Below, piece after piece: positions 3,347 to 63,056 of a stretch of 64,000 nucleotides of DNA. Numbering within the stretch: the stretch's first letter is position 1; each line of letters starts with the position of its first letter. The position numbers and the translations under genes are program-made. The DNA lies in NCBI GenBank assembly GCA_013298895.1, contig JAAFJM010000013.1, positions 1 through 64,000 of the forward strand, in the 5' to 3' direction. The stretch is from Bacteroidota bacterium. GTDB taxonomy: Bacteria > Bacteroidota > Bacteroidia > UKL13-3. The notes beneath the pieces were generated by a model, which was not told the DNA's origin, did no database searches, and saw only the letters and a list, made by a program, of their open reading frames with translations.

Positions 3347-3438
3347 AAAGGGCTACGAAAATAGGAAGTATTAATGATAAATTTTGAAGTATGAATTACG
3401 AATTACGAAGTATAAATTGTTATTTTAAACAAATACTT

Positions 3439-16542: not shown

Positions 16543-16557
16543 TTTTTTTTGATTGAA

Positions 16558-16639
16558 TTGCTTTATTGTTAAATGGTTAGATTGTCGGATTGTTAAATTA
16601 CTAATTGTCTATTGCCATTTGCTTATTGCTTATTAAACA
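16558..16639. repeat. Heptad-then-octad tandem array after the ftsE stop codon
   Basis: Read on the minus strand from the ftsE stop (TAG, 16640-16642), the first six units are 7-mers: TGTTTAA, TAAGCAA, TAAGCAA, ATGGCAA, TAGACAA, TTAGTAA. Five 8-mers follow: TTTAACAA, TCCGACAA, TCTAACCA, TTTAACAA, TAAAGCAA. The phase is unbroken over 82 bases and almost fills the gap to the hydrolase start at 16542. Nearly all units end in AA, most in CAA. Confidence 0.8.
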
Positions 16640-42652: not shown

Positions 42653-42686
42653 AAATAAAAATTTCCAAAGGCGTTTTTCAAATAAA

Positions 42687-42739
42687 CCATCAATCAACTA
42701 CTATCAACCATCAACTAAATTAACTTCACAAACAATTAA
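42687..42739. repeat. Mixed 7/8/9-base tandem array before the PorV-like gene
   Basis: Four units of 7 (CCATCAA, TCAACTA, CTATCAA, CCATCAA) are followed by CTAAATTAA (9), CTTCACAA and ACAATTAA (8 each). CCATCAA occurs twice. The unit endings (CAA, TAA) resemble the arrays at 16558-16639 and 48069-48252. It starts 34 bases after a stop codon. Confidence 0.55.
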
Positions 42740-45770: not shown

Positions 45771-46358
45771 TTAGTCAAAGTTTAAATTGGTAGGTTCGTT
45801 TAATATGGCAGAGCAAACATTGCAGTCTTTATTGGTTGTAGGAATTGAAGCGTCAACTATTTCAAAGTTAATATTACTGAACCAAACTTGCCCTTGCCCT
45901 ACAAGCAATGAACCATAAGCAAGGTTACTTGCATTAGCCGGAACATCCATAATAATTTCATATTTTTTCCAATCAGTAGTTTTTTTAATTGGTCTATTTC
46001 CCATGTTGTCAAAACCTAAAGGTTTACTACCGTATGCTGCTTCATCTACTCTTAACCACAAGCCAGCCCAACCTTTAACATCTTCCGTTTTTACATATCC
46101 AGTCATTTTAATTCTTTTACCCAAATATTTTTCAGCATTGCAACTTTGCATTAATGTTCCAAAACCTCCTTTTGTTTTTTTAGAAATTGATTTTATGGTT
46201 GCAGCATTTTTTCCATTAGGTCCTACGCCTTTGTCTAAGCCCATATCATAACATTCTGGACTACTGCCTGCTTTGTGCCAACCATTTGGTATGTCGAAAG
46301 AGAATAATATTGCCGTTAACAAAACGATTACTGCATTTTTTAAAATTTTAGTGTTCAT
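45771..46358 (-). CDS. Secreted beta-sandwich protein, carbohydrate-binding-like
   Basis: A 195-residue protein with signal ILKNAVIVLLTAILFS. The mature part (GWHKAGSSPECYDMGLDKG, FGTLMQSCNAEKYLGKRIKMTGYVKTEDVKGWAGLWLRVDE, GNRPIKKTTDWKKYEIIMDVP, GQGQVWFSNINFEIVD) looks like a jelly-roll or CBM-like fold used to bind small ligands or polysaccharides. A short C-terminal tail with Cys-Asn-Val-Cys follows. No partner gene. Exact ligand unknown. Confidence 0.72.
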   Translation of the reverse strand: MNTKILKNAVIVLLTAILFSFDIPNGWHKAGSSPECYDMGLDKGVGPNGKNAATIKSISKKTKGGFGTLMQSCNAEKYLGKRIKMTGYVKTEDVKGWAGLWLRVDEAAYGSKPLGFDNMGNRPIKKTTDWKKYEIIMDVPANASNLAYGSLLVGQGQVWFSNINFEIVDASIPTTNKDCNVCSAILNEPTNLNFD

Positions 46359-46498
46359 TTTTTTTGTTTAGATTGTTTATGTTTATTTATTGTTGAAAGT
46401 GTTATAACGAAGCGACACCAATAATATTATATTTTTTACTATTTCAATACGGCTACAATTATATTTCAATACATTTATATGTTAGTTTTTGAGTTAAT

Positions 46499-46957
46499 CT
46501 ACTCTTCACATATTTCTTTCAACTTTTCTAGTGCCTTGGGGTAGGTTTCGTTCATATAATCTAAAAAATCTTCTGTTGTGTCTAAGTCAACAGTTACGGT
46601 AGTAGTTTCGTTATTTTCTTCAAACGTGTAGTTTTCAAAACCATTTGCCCATTTTTCTACTTCTGGTCCTTCTGTTATTTCTTCATTTGCTTTTACAAGT
46701 CCGTAATGGCGAATAGAAATAAATTGGTTAGGTATATTTTCCATTATTTCCGAAACCATTCCACCCTTTTCTCCATTTTCATCAGTTCCTACAAATAACA
46801 TTTTGCTGCCCTTATTCCAATTCCCTTCGTAGCTAGATGTAGGATTGAACAACGCAGTCCATTGTTCATAAGTTAGTTTTTTGCCAATGCCTAGCATTAA
46901 ATCATATACTTTGTTTGCAGGGGCATTTATTTTTACAATGAATTGTACTCTTTTCAT
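46499..46957 (-). CDS. SRPBCC/START-fold protein (AHSA1-like)
   Basis: A 152-residue protein of the SRPBCC fold. Opening VQFIVKINAPANKVYDLMLG, then YEQWTALFNPTSSYEGNWNKGSKMLFVG, MVSEIMENIPNQFISIRHYGLVK, and a terminal helix (TVTVDLDTTEDFLDYMNETYPKALEKLKEICEE). Such proteins bind hydrophobic ligands or act as co-chaperone-like modules; the ligand is unknown. It overlaps the DUF1801 gene by 4 bases (downstream on the minus strand), so the two form an operon. Confidence 0.82.
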   Translation of the reverse strand: MKRVQFIVKINAPANKVYDLMLGIGKKLTYEQWTALFNPTSSYEGNWNKGSKMLFVGTDENGEKGGMVSEIMENIPNQFISIRHYGLVKANEEITEGPEVEKWANGFENYTFEENNETTTVTVDLDTTEDFLDYMNETYPKALEKLKEICEE

Positions 46958-47367
46958 AAGCTTTGATTATTTACTAAATTTATTTTTTCTAATTTTCCTT
47001 TTCTTTTCACTATGTTTTTATAGTCCCACTGAATTTCCCTTGATTTTTTGAGCCAACGGTTCAAATCATTTACGTTAATGTCAGAAATTTTGTTAATGAA
47101 AACAGATGCGTCTTTAAATTTTTCGCCTCTTACACTTAATTCTTCTTCTTCAAAGTCTGCACCGCTCCAAAACATAAGTCTGATACCTGCTTTTTGTTTG
47201 CTATATCCCACAATAGGGTTACTATTTAAAAACCAAACCGGATGCCCATGCCAAATTTTATTTTCTGCTTCGGTTAGTTCATTGCAAATAATTGTTGCAA
47301 GATGGTCGCAAATTTCTTTATCGTCCAGTGTTTGTTTGTTATTGTATTCAATAATTTTATCGTTCAT
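46954..47367 (-). CDS. DUF1801-family protein
   Basis: A 137-residue protein of the DUF1801 fold: CDHLATIICNELTEAENKIWHGHPVWFLNSNPIVGYSKQKAGIRLMFWSGADF, the C-terminal part basic (YKNIVKRKGKLEKIN). It overlaps the SRPBCC gene by 4 bases, a common pairing of two small putative ligand-binding proteins. Function unknown. A second DUF1801 relative is at 31645-32223. Confidence 0.82.
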   Translation of the reverse strand: MNDKIIEYNNKQTLDDKEICDHLATIICNELTEAENKIWHGHPVWFLNSNPIVGYSKQKAGIRLMFWSGADFEEEELSVRGEKFKDASVFINKISDINVNDLNRWLKKSREIQWDYKNIVKRKGKLEKINLVNNQSL

Positions 47368-47389
47368 TTTTTCAATGTTAAATAACTAA

Positions 47390-47708
47390 TAAAAATTCAC
47401 CAATTCCAAACATGCAATTTAAATTGCCAAGGCAAAATATTTAACTATCCTTAGCGTTAGTGAAGCGCTCTAAGGATTCTAAATAAATTGTAGTTTCCGA
47501 TTGCTATCGAAAACTGATAAGGGCTTTTACAAATGAGCTTTGAAATCTTTTTTCATTTTAATAGCGCTGTCACTGTTAAGACTGAGGATATTAATTTTAA
47601 CAATTTTAAAACAAATATTTCAAAATAAAAATAGGCCGATTAAAATGGCTAATTTCCTTACCTTGCTGCAAATAGATTGTAATTAGTAAGATAGATAAAT
47701 ACCGAAAA
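47390..47708. other. Gene-free stretch with two palindromic elements
   Basis: No coding region in these roughly 320 bases. ATCCTTAG (47447-47454) pairs with CTAAGGAT (47470-47477) around a loop containing AGTGAAGCG, similar to the loop of the dispersed hairpin repeats. CGATTGCTATCG near 47498-47509 is a degenerate copy of the 18-bp palindrome at 36570-36587. The rest is AT-rich. Confidence 0.6.
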
Positions 47709-48071
47709 ATGAAAAATTTAAAAAAAATATTAACCCTAGTTTTTGGCGTAATCATGATTTTAGCAGGAGTAATGCATTTTATTAATCCAGCAGTGTATTT
47801 GCCTTTTTTCCCAAATCAATGGCCTCAAGAAGCAATCATTTATGGTAGTGGAATTGTAGAAATGGTAGTTGGTATTTGTACTTTAATTCCTCGTTATAGC
47901 AAGTATGGTACTTTAGGAATTTTTATTTTGATGTTGGCGTTTTTACCACTTCATGTAATAGACGTTTTTAAAGAAAATCCTGTGGTAGGCAGTAAGTTAG
48001 TAGCATACATACGCTTACCATTTCAGTTTGTATTAATAGCTTGGGCTTGGTTTATTTTTAAAAAGGAATAA
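47709..48071 (+). CDS. DoxX-like integral membrane protein
   Basis: A 120-residue protein with four hydrophobic segments in the DoxX layout: [71 protein letters not shown] and [10 protein letters not shown]. DoxX-like proteins are small quinone- or redox-related membrane proteins; activity is not known here. No neighbour on the same transcript. Its TAA stop is the first three bases of a heptad array. Confidence 0.85.
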
Positions 48072-48252
48072 GCAATGTGCAATTGGCAATGGGCAATAAG
48101 CAATTGACAATATGCAATGGGCAATAGGCAATAGGTAATGGGCAATGAGCAATTGGCAATAAGCAATTCAATAATCCAACAATCTATCAAATTAACAACT
48201 CAACCAATCTCAATCACTTAATTAACTCTATCAACATAATTAACTTTATCAA
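48069..48252. repeat. 7/8/9-base tandem array starting at the DoxX-like stop codon
   Basis: Phase is continuous over 184 bases. First come 14 units of 7 (48069-48166), all but one ending GCAA or ACAA, for example TAAGCAA, TGTGCAA, TTGGCAA, TGGGCAA; the first TAA is the stop codon. Then four of 8 (TTCAATAA, TCCAACAA, TCTATCAA, ATTAACAA; 48167-48198). Then six of 9 (CTCAACCAA, TCTCAATCA, CTTAATTAA, CTCTATCAA, CATAATTAA, CTTTATCAA; 48199-48252). Confidence 0.85.
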
Positions 48253-48347
48253 CTATTAACTTTTCTTCACTAAAACAATTGATTTTTATTTGAGTTTATA
48301 ATAGTATCTTATAAAATTATATATTCGCAACAAACTAAAATACATAT

Positions 48348-49487
48348 ATGAATTTTCAATTTACCGAAGAACACTTAAATGTGCAACAAGCAGCTCGCGA
48401 TTTTGCTCAAACAGAATTATTACCAGGCGTAATTGAGCGCGATGAGCACCAAAAATTCCCAATGGAACAAGTTAAAAAATTGGGTGAACTTGGATTTTTA
48501 GGTATGATGGTTGACCCAAAATACGGTGGAAGCGGAATGGATACCATTAGCTACGTATTGGCAATGGAAGAATTTTCGAAAGTGGATGCTTCAGCTTCGG
48601 TTGTCGTATCAGTAAATAATTCATTGGTGTGCTGGGGTTTAGAAACTTTTGCTAACGAAGAACAAAAACAAAAATATTTAGTGCCTATGGCTAGCGGAAA
48701 ATGTTGGGGTGCTTTTTTACTTTCGGAGCCAGAAGCAGGTAGTGATGCTACAAGCCAAAGAACTACTGCTGAAGATAAAAGTGATTATTACTTGTTAAAT
48801 GGTACCAAAAACTGGATTACCAATGGCAGTACAGCTGAGTATTACTTAGTAATTGCTCAAACAGATGTTGAGAAAAAACACAAAGGTATCAATGCCTTTA
48901 TAGTTGAAAAAAACTGGCCAGGTGTAACAGTTGGTAAAAAAGAAGATAAAATGGGTATTAGAGGAAGCGATACACACTCTATTATGTTTACCGATGTAAA
49001 AGTTCCAAAAGAAAACAGAATTGGTGAAGATGGTTTTGGGTTTAAGTTTGCTATGAAAACATTAGCTGGCGGTCGTATTGGTATTGCTGCGCAAGCACTA
49101 GGTATTGCAAGCGGTGCATATGAGTTGGCATTAGCTTATTCAAAACAACGTAAAGCATTTGGAACTGAAATTATGAATCACCAAGCTATTCAGTTTAAAT
49201 TAGCTGATATGGCTACTAATATTGAAGCAGCTCGTTTACTTTGCTTAAAAGCGGCTTATTTAAAAGATACACATGGCGATTATGCTTTAGTTAGTTCAAT
49301 GGCTAAATTATATGCATCGCAAGTAGCTATGGACACTACGGTAGAAGCAGTTCAAATTCATGGTGGTTATGGTTTTGTTAAAGAATACCATGTAGAGCGT
49401 TTAATGCGTGATGCTAAAATTACCCAAATTTACGAAGGAACTAGCGAGGTTCAAAAAATTGTAATTTCAAGAGAAATTTTAAAATAA
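48348..49487 (+). CDS. Acyl-CoA dehydrogenase
   Basis: A FAD enzyme that oxidises acyl-CoA to the trans-2-enoyl-CoA in fatty-acid or branched-chain breakdown. The 379-residue length is typical. Visible: AFLLSEPEAGSDATSQRTTA (FAD and substrate site), GTKNWITNGSTAEYYLVIAQT, KMGIRGSDTHSIMFTDVKVP, and the end QIHGGYGFVKEYHVERLMRDAKITQIYEGTSEVQ with catalytic Glu363. It resembles short-chain (butyryl) forms. TATATTCG at 48320-48327 is a near -7 box. Strong terminator follows. Confidence 0.95.
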   Translation: MNFQFTEEHLNVQQAARDFAQTELLPGVIERDEHQKFPMEQVKKLGELGFLGMMVDPKYGGSGMDTISYVLAMEEFSKVDASASVVVSVNNSLVCWGLETFANEEQKQKYLVPMASGKCWGAFLLSEPEAGSDATSQRTTAEDKSDYYLLNGTKNWITNGSTAEYYLVIAQTDVEKKHKGINAFIVEKNWPGVTVGKKEDKMGIRGSDTHSIMFTDVKVPKENRIGEDGFGFKFAMKTLAGGRIGIAAQALGIASGAYELALAYSKQRKAFGTEIMNHQAIQFKLADMATNIEAARLLCLKAAYLKDTHGDYALVSSMAKLYASQVAMDTTVEAVQIHGGYGFVKEYHVERLMRDAKITQIYEGTSEVQKIVISREILK

Positions 49488-49503
49488 TTTTTTAAACAGA
49501 TAT

Positions 49504-49538
49504 AAAAAACCTTGGTCTTTGGACCGAGGTTTTTTTTT
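49504..49538 (+). terminator. Terminator after the acyl-CoA dehydrogenase gene
   Basis: A-run plus CCTTGGTC (49510-49517) pairs with GACCGAGG (49522-49529) and a following T run; one G-T wobble. It begins 17 bases after the stop codon. Confidence 0.88.
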
Positions 49539-49658
49539 GAGTTCAATTTTTGAATTTAAATATAAAAAACTTAAATGTTTGAGGTTTAAATCAGTTCCTA
49601 ATTTTTAGAAAAAAAATAAAGCACTGAAAGCAACCTTTTTGCAATTAAATATTACTAT

Positions 49659-49687
49659 TTGAATTATTCAGGCAAAGGTTATATTTG
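49659..49687 (+). promoter_or_regulatory. Bacteroidota-type promoter of the DUF4397 gene
   Basis: TTG (49659-49661), 18 bases, TATATTTG (49680-49687): an exact consensus match, 63 bases upstream of the start codon, with an AT-rich leader between. Confidence 0.82.
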
Positions 49688-49750
49688 CCAATATCTAACC
49701 TTATTTTTAATAAATAAGTAATTTTAAAAATAAATACTAAAATATAATAG

Positions 49751-52249
49751 ATGAAACACTTTAACATAATCAAGAAATCATTATTTGCTGTGATGGCAAG
49801 TGCAGTTTTTTATTCTGCCAATGCTCAAACGGCACGTTTTCAATTAATTCATAATGCTGCTGATCCTATTTTGGATACTGTTGATATTTATATTGATGGA
49901 AATAAGCTAGATAACGTAGCTTTTAGACAAGCTACTGGTATTATGACAGCTGCTTCATCATCGGTAAAAATTAATATTAACGATAAAAATAGTGCTGATA
50001 GTAGTGATTTAGTTTTGGTTCGTTTTAGCCAAAATGTGGCAGCTAACTCAAATACTGTAATGATGGTAACTGGAGTAGCTAATACTGCTAGTTTTGCTGT
50101 TAATCCAAACTCGCTAAGCACAGCTGTGCAGTTGGTTACTAAAACAATTACTAATTGGGCTGCTGCAGCTAACAGAGTTCAAGTAAATGTATTTCACGGT
50201 GTAACAGATGCTCCTGGAGTTGATATAGTTTCTCGCCCCGCATTAGCAACTGGTACCTTACCAACTAATTTACGTTTTGCTCAAGCTAATGGTGGTGCAC
50301 AAGCATTGTTTTTTAACAATACTGCTACCTATTTAGAAGCTCGTTTAACAGGAACTCGTTCGGTAATTAAAGCATACAGCGCTAATTTGGCCTTATTTAA
50401 CCAAAAATTGATTACAGTTTTTGCTTCAGGTTTTGTAAATCCAACGGCTAATCAAAATGGAAAAGCATTTGGTATGTTTGCAGTTGATACCAACGGAACA
50501 GTAATTGAATTACCAGAAGCTACTAGAATTCAATTTATTCATAATGCTCCAGATGCAGCTTTAGGTAATGTAGATATTTATTTTAACCAAGTTAAGGTTG
50601 TTTCTAATTTAGCTTATAAAGCAGCAACTCCATTTATCACTGCAAATACAGGTAATACTGAGGTGTTGGTTTCTAGTGTTGGTCAAAATGATACATTATT
50701 CAGAATTCCTGCAGTTAATTTAGTTTCGGGTAAATCATATTTAGCCATGGCTTTAGGTTTAAAAGATACCACGAGTTTTGAGAGTAATCCTGAAGGTTTA
50801 AACAGAATGTTTAATATTATAGCGAATGATAGTATGCCTGAGGGTTCATTAGTTACAGGCAGTTTTCAATATTTAGTAGCTAACGGTTGTACCGATGCTC
50901 CGCAACTAAATTTTAATAATGTAGCTAATCAAGCAAGTTTAATTGGTAGTTTGTCTTATTCTTCATTGTCTTCGTTGAAAACTACTAGTTCTAATGTAAT
51001 ATTTAACATTAGTAACAATGATAAAACAAAATATAACGGTGCATTTTTATTAAATGGTGCTACTTTATCAAATCAATCAGGTGTTATTTTTACAACTGGA
51101 TTTTTTAACACAGCATCATTTAAAGTTATGTTAGCTTTAAACAGTGGTTCGGTTATAGAACTTCAACGTTTAAAAAATAAATTACAAATTATTCATAATT
51201 CACCTGATACAACCATTCGCATGGTTGATATTTATGCAAATGGTTCAAAAATAGTAGATGATTTAGGTTTCAGAAAAACCACAGGAATTGCCTCAACTGA
51301 TGCTTATGTTCCTGTAAGAATTAATATTGTGAATGGAAATGCAAGTGATACAGTTAATTCACTTTGGTCTGCAAGCATGTTACCTGATTCTAATTTCAAT
51401 ATTGCTATTGCTCATGGTTTTGTTGGTGCTGCTTATAGAGTAAATCCTGAAGCAATTTCAACTAATTTTAGTGTAAAACTAATTAGTCCTGCTAAATTGA
51501 CTTCTTCATTCCCTAACCCAACTAATGAAGTTATTTTCTTCCATGGAGGAACAAACGTTGGTAAATTAAATATGCAAGGCGACCAAGAGCCATTATTCGT
51601 AGCTAAAAACAATTCTTATGGATCTGTTTATAAGTACATGCCTACAAAAGGAAATGCTGGAGCTGCTTATACAGTTACAGATGCAAATACAAATACTGGT
51701 TTGTTTACTTATTCTGTTAATTTAGTAGGAAAAAATGGATTAGCAGGAGTATTATTTGCTTCAGGGGTTAACTTAAATTTGGCTGTAAATTATAAAGATA
51801 CCACCATCAATATTGGCACTATTCAAAATCCAATAAACAAAACTTATGTAATAGCACGAGCAGCTAATAAGGCTGATTCTATTTTAAATGCTTTAGATAA
51901 AAATTTGAATATAGGTTTTTACATAGCTTGGAGCAATGGAAAAGTTGATACTTTTACAAGAGAACGTGGAACTAATGTTAAAAATGTTGCCTCAAACGAG
52001 AATGGTTTAGTAATTTTCCCAAATCCTGCAAATGATAAAGTTTCGGTTATGGTAAATGCTACTAACAGCAATAACGCTCAAATAAACATTATTGATATTA
52101 AAGGTGCTATTGTAAAATCAATGGATAATAAATTGGTTTCTGGTGTAAATGTAGTGGAACTTTCTGTTGCTGATTTACCTAAAGGAATGTACTTTGTTCA
52201 AGTAACTTCAAACGAAGGAACAAGTACTAAAAAATTAGTGATTGAATAA
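49751..52249 (+). CDS. DUF4397 surface protein with type IX (type A) sorting tail
   Basis: An 832-residue secreted protein with a Sec signal (residues 1-26). It has three paired units of alternating DUF4397-like strands: IHNAADPILDTVDIYI (33-48), IHNAPDAALGNVDIYF (263-278) and IHNSPDTTIRMVDIYA (481-496) open the first halves; HGVTDAPG (149-156), NGCTDAPQ (378-385) and the divergent HGGTNVGK open the second halves. The repeat spacing is about 220-230 residues. The C-terminus (IFPNPANDKVSVMVN ... KGMYFVQVTSNEGTSTKKLVIE) is a type A sorting domain, so it is exported through the type IX system. Adhesion or cell-surface role is inferred. Confidence 0.88.
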   Translation: MKHFNIIKKSLFAVMASAVFYSANAQTARFQLIHNAADPILDTVDIYIDGNKLDNVAFRQATGIMTAASSSVKININDKNSADSSDLVLVRFSQNVAANSNTVMMVTGVANTASFAVNPNSLSTAVQLVTKTITNWAAAANRVQVNVFHGVTDAPGVDIVSRPALATGTLPTNLRFAQANGGAQALFFNNTATYLEARLTGTRSVIKAYSANLALFNQKLITVFASGFVNPTANQNGKAFGMFAVDTNGTVIELPEATRIQFIHNAPDAALGNVDIYFNQVKVVSNLAYKAATPFITANTGNTEVLVSSVGQNDTLFRIPAVNLVSGKSYLAMALGLKDTTSFESNPEGLNRMFNIIANDSMPEGSLVTGSFQYLVANGCTDAPQLNFNNVANQASLIGSLSYSSLSSLKTTSSNVIFNISNNDKTKYNGAFLLNGATLSNQSGVIFTTGFFNTASFKVMLALNSGSVIELQRLKNKLQIIHNSPDTTIRMVDIYANGSKIVDDLGFRKTTGIASTDAYVPVRINIVNGNASDTVNSLWSASMLPDSNFNIAIAHGFVGAAYRVNPEAISTNFSVKLISPAKLTSSFPNPTNEVIFFHGGTNVGKLNMQGDQEPLFVAKNNSYGSVYKYMPTKGNAGAAYTVTDANTNTGLFTYSVNLVGKNGLAGVLFASGVNLNLAVNYKDTTINIGTIQNPINKTYVIARAANKADSILNALDKNLNIGFYIAWSNGKVDTFTRERGTNVKNVASNENGLVIFPNPANDKVSVMVNATNSNNAQINIIDIKGAIVKSMDNKLVSGVNVVELSVADLPKGMYFVQVTSNEGTSTKKLVIE

Positions 52250-60175: not shown

Positions 60176-61891
60176 ATGAGCGATTCATTAAACGTAAACT
60201 TAAATATAAAAGCTGAGGCACAAATTACTTACGATGCCATAGTAGTTGGAAGCGGAATTACAGGCGGTTTGGCTGCTAAAGAATTATGCGAAAAAGGGCT
60301 AAAAACTTTGGTTTTGGAGCGTGGCCGCAATGTAGAACACATTAAAGATTATACCACAGCCATGAAACATCCGTGGGAGTTTGAAAATAGGTTAGAAATA
60401 ACCGATGAAGATAGAACTACCAATCCGGTACAAAGCATGAGCTACGACCCTGGAAACAAACACTTTTATGTAAACGATCAAGACCATCCATACATTCAAC
60501 AAAAGCCTTATAACTGGATTAGAGGTTACCAAGTAGGTGGCCGTTCTTTAACTTGGGGCCGTCAAGTTTATCGCTTTAGTGATTTAGATTTTGAAGCCAA
60601 TTTAAAAGATGGACATGGAGTTGATTGGCCAATTAGATACAAAGATTTAGAACCTTGGTATAATTATGTAGAGCAATTTATTGGGGTGAGCGGCTGTGCC
60701 GATGCCATTCCTCACTTACCTCATGGCGATTATTTACCTGCCATGGATATGAATTGTATTGAAAAACATTTGGCCGAATCAATTAAGAAAAATTACGACC
60801 AACGTTGGCTAATTAGCTCGCGAGTAGCTAATTTAACCAAAGGTTTTAAAGATAGAGGTCCTTGTAATTTTAGGAATTTATGTAGCCGTGGTTGCCCTTA
60901 TGGTGGTTATTTTAGCAGTAATTCGGCTTCATTGCCTGCAGCAAATGCTACAGGAAATTTAACCATTAGGCCACATGCTATTGTACAAGAAATAATTTAC
61001 GACCCACAAACCAAAAAGGCCAAAGGTGTTCGTATTATTGATGAATTGACCAAAGAAACCATGGAGTTTTATGCTAAAATTATTTTCTTAAATGCATCAA
61101 CCATTGCTACTGCATCTATTTTATTAAATTCAAAATCGAGTTATTTTCCAAATGGATTTGGCAATAGTAGCGGACAGGTGGGTTTAAATTTAATGGACCA
61201 TCACAAAGGGGTAGGTGCAACGGGTATGTACGAAGGTTTTAAAGATAAATATTACGCAGGCCGCAGACCCGCAGGAGTTTATATACCAAGGTTTAGAAAC
61301 TTAAATGAACAAACCAAACATCCTGATTTTGTGCGTGGTTATGGTTATCAAGCTGATGGCGAACGCAGCGAATGGCCTGATGTAATGAAAGATGATGATA
61401 GTTTTGGTGAAGGTTATAAACAAAAATTGAGTACTCCAGGCCCGTGGACTATGTGGATGGGTGCTTGGGGCGAATGTTTACCAAACAGCGAAAATAAAAT
61501 TTGGCTCGATGCGGAGAAAAAAGACAAATGGGGAATGCCATTGGTAAATGTAAACTTTGAGCATGGTGCAAATGATATGGCCATGCGTAAAGATGCCAAA
61601 GAAAGTGCGCAGGAAATGTTAGAAAAAGCAAACTTCAAAAATATTAAGCCTTTTGAGTTTTTGTTTCCGGGAACAGCCATACACGAAATGGGAACAGCCC
61701 GCATGGGACGAGACCCTAAAACTTCGGTTTTAAATGCACATAACCAAATGCATGATGTAAAAAATGTATTTATAACCGATGGTAGCGCCATGGCTTCAAG
61801 TGGCTGTCAAAATCCATCATTAACATATATGGCATTAACTGCTCGTGCGTGCGATTATGCTGTAAGCGAATTGAAAAAAGGGAATATTTAG
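60176..61891 (+). CDS. GMC-family oxidoreductase (large subunit)
   Basis: A 571-residue FAD oxidoreductase of the glucose-methanol-choline family. The FAD Rossmann start YDAIVVGSGITGGLAAKELCEKGLKTLVLERG, RGYQVGGRSLTWGRQVYR, and the C-terminal catalytic block AIHEMGTARMGRDPKTSVLNAHNQMHDVKNVFITDGSAMASSGCQNPSLTYMALTARACDYA are visible. The lack of its own signal suggests export with the partner subunit. Substrate unknown: sugar, sugar acid or alcohol. Its TAG stop forms part of the heptad array at 61885-61940. Confidence 0.92.
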   Translation: MSDSLNVNLNIKAEAQITYDAIVVGSGITGGLAAKELCEKGLKTLVLERGRNVEHIKDYTTAMKHPWEFENRLEITDEDRTTNPVQSMSYDPGNKHFYVNDQDHPYIQQKPYNWIRGYQVGGRSLTWGRQVYRFSDLDFEANLKDGHGVDWPIRYKDLEPWYNYVEQFIGVSGCADAIPHLPHGDYLPAMDMNCIEKHLAESIKKNYDQRWLISSRVANLTKGFKDRGPCNFRNLCSRGCPYGGYFSSNSASLPAANATGNLTIRPHAIVQEIIYDPQTKKAKGVRIIDELTKETMEFYAKIIFLNASTIATASILLNSKSSYFPNGFGNSSGQVGLNLMDHHKGVGATGMYEGFKDKYYAGRRPAGVYIPRFRNLNEQTKHPDFVRGYGYQADGERSEWPDVMKDDDSFGEGYKQKLSTPGPWTMWMGAWGECLPNSENKIWLDAEKKDKWGMPLVNVNFEHGANDMAMRKDAKESAQEMLEKANFKNIKPFEFLFPGTAIHEMGTARMGRDPKTSVLNAHNQMHDVKNVFITDGSAMASSGCQNPSLTYMALTARACDYAVSELKKGNI

Positions 61892-61940
61892 TTGCTAGTT
61901 CTTAGTACTTAGTTCGAAGTTTACAGTTCGAAGTACTAAG
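61885..61940. repeat. Heptad tandem array over the GMC stop codon
   Basis: Eight in-phase units of 7: TATTTAG (containing the stop TAG), TTGCTAG, TTCTTAG, TACTTAG, TTCGAAG, TTTACAG, TTCGAAG, TACTAAG. Every unit starts with T and ends in AG. Confidence 0.75.
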
Positions 61941-62029
61941 TTTGGTTACTGAGCGCGGTCACTGAGCGTAAGTAGCCGAAGTGAATTATTTTAAGAATAC
62001 TTTATTAACAACCAAAGCCGCGCGGTAAC

Positions 62030-62986: not shown

Positions 62987-63056
62987 ATTATAAAATATTT
63001 TTGTATTAAAAACGAACAACGAATATCGAACAACGAAATAAATAATTTGATAAACT

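Follow-up and report, generated by a model that had tools for sequence, protein, structure and literature searches.

Intergenic heptamer repeats are known from cyanobacteria as STRR heptamers, and surveys of long simple sequence repeats and of STRR seek near-perfect repeats. Among the long simple sequence repeats of Mrazek et al. 2007 with 5-11 nt units, as summarised in PMC4679880, heptamers are the commonest length and are intergenic. Rehm et al. 2015 (PMC4692102), where STRR heptamers are also treated, described arrays of GGGAATC in Xanthomonas and of GGGGA(C/T)T in Nostoc, which vary in copy number and lie between codirectional ORFs, either in sense within 50 bp of a stop codon (stop overlap included) or in antisense within 50 bp of a start codon. 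In these repeats the G strand is nearest its 5′ neighbouring gene, inverted pairs occur, 83% are found at the same site in a sister species, and most are transcribed in Xac; quadruplexes were discussed in the same study (PMC4692102). MacGregor 2015 (PMC4679880) reported TAACTGA direct repeats in Beggiatoaceae, Cyanobacteria and five Bacteroidetes, mostly just upstream of start codons, as well as mixed heptamer arrays in Gramella, Aequorivita and Elizabethkingia, with stop-codon overlaps. Gene-edge heptamer arrays have so far been explained by quadruplex formation or by binding sites.

Here we analyse an array in a Bacteroidota draft genome of 3.6 Mb and 32% G+C, within a window of 64,000 nucleotides (the whole stretch of DNA analysed; contig JAAFJM010000013.1). 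The earlier note called the array an unrecognised class, a description that gives way to the published record, as heptamer arrays with matching placement rules are found in Xanthomonas and Nostoc (Rehm et al. 2015, PMC4692102) and others in Bacteroidetes (MacGregor 2015, PMC4679880). Like the Rehm repeats, the arrays of this genome are intergenic tandem heptamers kept out of coding sequence, prefer codirectional spacers, and carry the G strand in sense near stops and in antisense near starts (49:15; 23:4 in sister genomes). Unlike them, they have AT-rich and highly degenerate units of many types, include octamers as a second class, show unit replacement at orthologous sites and occur in Bacteroidota. 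No GGGNATC/GGGGAYT pairs are found in the 1.59 Mb examined and a G3 quartet motif is present in just 2 of 118 arrays, arguing that the arrays follow the Rehm placement rules with a different sequence family. They share with the TAACTGA repeats a dispersed intergenic location and overlap with stop codons, yet that class has a single fixed unit placed mostly just before start codons, and the same 1.59 Mb holds 0 TAACTGA direct-repeat pairs. In contrast to the Mrazek and STRR repeats, units here are merely ~70-75% identical to each other, so strict criteria would miss many of the arrays. The feature is thus a variant of a repeat class already known but poorly explained, rather than an unrecognised 3′-UTR class, and such function as we ascribe to it is one that we infer.

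The array and its surroundings

The array lies in the spacer between two + strand genes, one DoxX/MauE-like and the next for an acyl-CoA dehydrogenase (Table 1); the nearest relatives of the dehydrogenase are in Bacteroidota metagenome assemblies, some labelled Chitinophaga. The unit parse given in the earlier note is exact, with fourteen 7-base units (48069-48166), four 8-base units (48167-48198) and six 9-base units (48199-48252); the array begins at the TAA stop of the upstream ORF, which is located within repeat unit 1 (AATAAGC). The phase is unbroken across the three blocks because the block lengths were chosen that way. In the period-7 block, lag-7 identity is 0.74, a value reached by 0 of 1000 dinucleotide shuffles, and the period-8 block has an identity of 0.71 (P=0.003). 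The period-9 block reaches just 0.51 (P=0.01, or 0.05 once any lag from 5 to 12 is allowed); it scores higher at lag 18 (0.67), and TRF returns an 18-bp unit in 2.6 copies. A counterpart of this 18-bp-unit stretch is present in genome G003 and absent from G006 and G009. That the array as a whole reflects chance periodicity or an assembly artefact is extremely improbable: the weak 9-base block, with its corrected P of 0.05, would fit such a reading, but the shuffle result for the heptamer block, the genome-wide enrichment of arrays and their recurrence at the same site in independent genomes contradict it. Chance or artefact is refuted for periods 7 and 8, and stands for the 9-base step.

Table 1. 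Features of the array locus, in window coordinates
Feature	Position	Strand	Basis or remark
DoxX/MauE-like membrane protein, 120 aa	47709..48071	+	Pfam MauE PF07291, 27.3 bits, barely over cut-off
G-type heptamer array, 14 units, consensus GCAATNG	48069..48166	+	TRF, lag-7 identity, mismatch distribution
Octamer array (CAAT + 4), sense strand without G, facing the downstream gene	48167..48209	+	Period-8 array, spacer positions 93-138
Stretch first read as 9-mers (48199-48252)	48199..48263	+	Better described as 18-bp unit TAATTAACTTTATCAACA x2.6 (48219-48263)
Promoter-like block ACAATTGATTTTTATTTGAGTTTATAATAGTA..TATATTCGC before the acyl-CoA dehydrogenase	48277..48331	+	Four-species alignment; Bacteroidota-like -7 element TANNTTYGC
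Acyl-CoA dehydrogenase, 379 aa	48348..49487	+	ORF and domain search

Mismatches within the heptamer array are distributed unevenly over the unit (z 9.5, P 0.005): the five columns of GCAAT account for 2 of them and the two columns that follow for 13. Three consecutive GCAATNG units with at most two mismatches match the genome 110 times, versus once for the reversed pattern; with one mismatch allowed, 8 of the genus's 9 other genomes contain the triple, which is rare outside the genus. Composition switches sharply at 48167, a change that the first reading missed, from G26/C13 in the heptamer part to G0/C21 in the remaining 86 bases. No intrinsic terminator (a GC hairpin followed by a T run) is found in 48072-48347, the spacer folds with a z of +2.0, and a scan of 46000-50000 gives no Rfam family above gathering score over the array. 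The promoter-like block is probably the promoter of the acyl-CoA dehydrogenase gene. Elsewhere in the window, other degenerate heptamer/octamer arrays lie at 61888-61942, 3358-3418, 16543-16639, 42685-42717 and 63011-63037, with the different unit types AGTTCGA, GAAGTAT, GCAATAA/AACAATCT, AACCATC and AACGAAC.

Placement and polarity of arrays across the genome

Arrays were counted in a genome sample of 1.59 Mb (44%), with genes from a home-made Markov caller; the largest contigs were included nearly whole and several smaller ones were picked for carrying the motif, so that array densities are somewhat high, although orientation tests should be unaffected. Codirectional spacers (113 kb) hold 54 period-7 and 31 period-8 arrays versus 0.8 each in shuffles, other periods being near background, and period-7/period-8 counts elsewhere are 1/1 in convergent spacers, 11/6 in divergent spacers and 10/2 in genes. 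With 10 heptamer arrays in 1296 kb of genic sequence and 0.8 in shuffled spacers, the earlier note's expectation that arrays should be rare in both is borne out. Counted by spacer, arrays occur in 65/526 codirectional, 12/161 divergent and 2/93 convergent spacers (codirectional versus convergent, P 0.0017). After the stops of codirectional spacers, mean autocorrelation has its maxima at lags 7, 14 and 21 (+9, +8 and +8 SD), and upstream of starts it has them at lags 7 and 8; no lag-7 or lag-8 signal is detected upstream of divergent starts, and gene interiors display the codon period only.

Anchoring on stop codons, also proposed from the single locus, holds for period 7: 28 heptamer arrays begin between -20 and +9 of a stop, against 13.0 ± 2.8 under random placement, and start codons have no excess (13 against 12.9 expected). 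Among these 28, a stop triplet recurs at +7, +14 and +21 in 7, 5 and 5 arrays, respectively. The stepwise rise from 7 to 8 to 9 does not extend beyond this locus as a general gradient and is rejected, as period 9 is not enriched genome-wide and the 7/8 step joins two arrays of opposite G/C polarity. One genome carries many unrelated unit types, and mismatches are uneven over the unit in 22 of 73 arrays. The arrays are a dispersed, degenerate intergenic repeat class with 7-base and 8-base units of several interchangeable types.

For polarity, each array was oriented by its G-richer strand and scored for whether the 5′ end of that strand is closer to its gene edge. In the present genome (G000), the G-richer strand runs inward from the closest gene edge in 49:15 heptamer arrays (n=64, P 2e-5) and 28:7 octamer arrays (n=35); the sister genomes G003 and G006 together give 23:4 and 11:2, and other families 7:2, which with so few arrays is not significant. 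Start edges are as polarised as stop edges (heptamers 22:8 versus 27:7), and convergent spacers, despite containing two 3′ ends each, carry arrays in just the 2/93 given above, both of which argue against the proposed 3′-UTR element. The two unit lengths differ in edge preference, with stop/start counts of 27/22 for heptamers and 7/21 for octamers (P 0.016). Where a spacer holds both, the octamers lie inside of the heptamers (14:2) and the two have opposite skew (13:3), indicating that the 7-to-8 step is the meeting of two inward-facing arrays; at the DoxX locus, a stop-side G-type heptamer array meets a G-poor octamer array that faces the next gene.

Depletion of G before start codons is seen in all spacers, so start-side polarity has a general reason; G excess after stops is confined to array spacers, and general composition therefore cannot account for polarity on the stop side. 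On reasoning, supply of stop codons also fails as the cause: it does not cover start edges, and GGGAATC contains no stop on either of its strands. Quadruplex formation is rejected as the cause as well, since 106 of the 118 arrays lack even a GG-quartet motif and polarity persists among arrays without any such motif (69:19, P 8e-8).

Spacers with an array have less structure than the rest (z -1.0 versus -1.9), a result on which a long hairpin pairing the G arm with the C arm is rejected. Intrinsic terminators are present in 18% of array spacers versus 34% of others, with the caveat that an array occupies spacer room and alone reduces the chance of a terminator; convergent spacers have them in 70%. 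The fewer terminators, the lower structure and the near-absence from convergent spacers place the arrays mostly where genes may be co-transcribed. The motif TANNTTYGC is sense-enriched and lies mostly 10-50 nt before start codons; it is neither enriched nor depleted in array spacers (7/56 versus 45/339 in others), and an association of arrays with promoters is rejected.

Turnover at orthologous sites

In the DoxX-dehydrogenase spacer of four species, the order of stop, heptamers, octamers and promoter-like block is kept, and units and copy numbers differ. The promoter-like block (within 48277-48347, ending TATATTCGC) is nearly invariant in the four species beside an array that turns over. The heptamer/octamer junction of this spacer carries a palindrome in two of the species (G006 and G009). 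In G009, the array extends upstream of the present stop, ~15 repeat codons are translated and the stop is supplied by the array. Erosion of C termini by arrays as a general process is rejected, with length changes in 10% of 10 ortholog pairs versus 10% of 103.

Over 112 comparisons of orthologous spacers, both species have an array in 10/15 where G000 has one and in 3/97 where it has none. Units are nevertheless replaced at sites whose proteins are ~97% identical, with GCTGGCT changing to GATGGGA at C3:43658 and TGAATTT to CTAGCTT at C14:22602; at some other orthologous sites the array is unchanged between species. Sites that are kept while their units change offer natural experiments on how such arrays act. 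A 74-bp spacer (G000 C67:39605-39678 and G003 C48) consists of heptamers over its whole length between stop and start (CTTCTGG..CTAAAAA) and is identical in both species, whereas turnover elsewhere is fast. At 80 acyl-CoA dehydrogenase loci of other genera, a period-7/8 array lies at -6..+6 nt of the stop in 5, and period-7 arrays dominate the same loci (17 versus 0-2 per other period).

Explanations for the arrays

Read jointly, these results lead us to rate at somewhat better than even the account in which the locus is one of a dispersed intergenic repeat class, spread by slippage and exchange and tolerated as a low-structure linker. Arrays would lengthen and shorten through replication slippage, would also be changed by exchange between dispersed copies, may grow across a stop codon, after which the array itself provides the stop (the case in G009), and would persist where the transcript is not harmed. 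Because each arm is G-rich and C-poor or the reverse, it would contribute little structure to the mRNA between co-transcribed genes, and start-side polarity may simply reflect the general depletion of G ahead of start codons. However, stop-side G polarity, the preference for 7 and the far lower variability of the GCAAT core than of the last two positions are beyond what slippage, exchange and a linker role explain. Slippage alone is disfavoured because mismatches should then spread evenly, yet 22/73 arrays are uneven, which hints at selection on the core or shuffling of a limited unit set. The lack of an age gradient along arrays also counts against this account, as does the finding that C-terminal erosion is not general, and growth from one end with such a gradient is rejected, the two array halves being alike (30 versus 29).

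A phased binding site, as the earlier note suggested, in which a protein reading one 7-base step per subunit binds, on DNA or RNA downstream of stops, a GCAAT core with free linkers, would account for a core much more conserved than the linker, for stop anchoring in excess of chance and for sites conserved between species. It is unlikely nonetheless, given that orthologous sites swap to unrelated heptamers, which a sequence-reading protein would not tolerate, that start edges have the same polarity, and that one genome carries many unrelated unit types. We consider it very unlikely that the arrays punctuate transcription as hairpin-free (e.g., Rho-dependent) terminators or as insulators between transcription units: their spacers are poor in intrinsic terminators and the right-hand arm, unstructured, rich in C and devoid of G, resembles a Rho loading site, but the arm next to the stop is rich in G, contrary to what a Rho site would be, and convergent spacers, where termination matters most, rely on hairpins and seldom hold arrays. 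A mobile composite, a REP/MITE-like cassette in which the heptamer and octamer arms move jointly with a palindromic hairpin, is quite unlikely too. Three loci do share the same array and flank CAAAACGAATTTTTCT..CTTATTAACCTATCAAC, three families of short palindromes lie mostly in array spacers, and the palindrome CCGTT-GGCTTTAGCC-AACGG is found in 4/79 array spacers versus 0/701 (P 1e-4); yet most arrays do not share flanks, unit types mix freely, and neither terminal inverted repeats nor, in an unsystematic look, target duplications were seen.

The distant phyla represented by Bacteroidota here and by Xanthomonas and Nostoc in published work may share a 7-base positional grammar, with the G-richer strand inward, that is independent of unit sequence and of quadruplexes, a generalisation we regard as possible but doubtful. 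If true, it would point to a common process at translation/transcription boundaries or in replication that makes and maintains 7-base (here also 8-base) arrays and swaps their sequence. The arrays here show the same polarity and anchoring at stops although they are AT-rich, variable and for the most part quadruplex-free, which uncouples the placement rule from unit sequence and makes that rule testable; degenerate arrays of this kind are easily overlooked by strict repeat finders.

The palindromes CCGTT-GGCTTTAGCC-AACGG, CACGC..GCGTGA and CCCGATTTATCGGGA are found chiefly in array spacers, frequently at the point where heptamers give way to octamers, with examples at G000 C11:61583-61736 and C1:36844-37008 and in the DoxX spacers of G006 and G009. 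At G000 C3:57806-58220, a ~90 bp composite of a heptamer array and the palindrome AGCCGTTAGGCTTTAGCCAACGGTAAAAA is present in ~4 tandem copies, forming a higher-order repeat made of array and hairpin.
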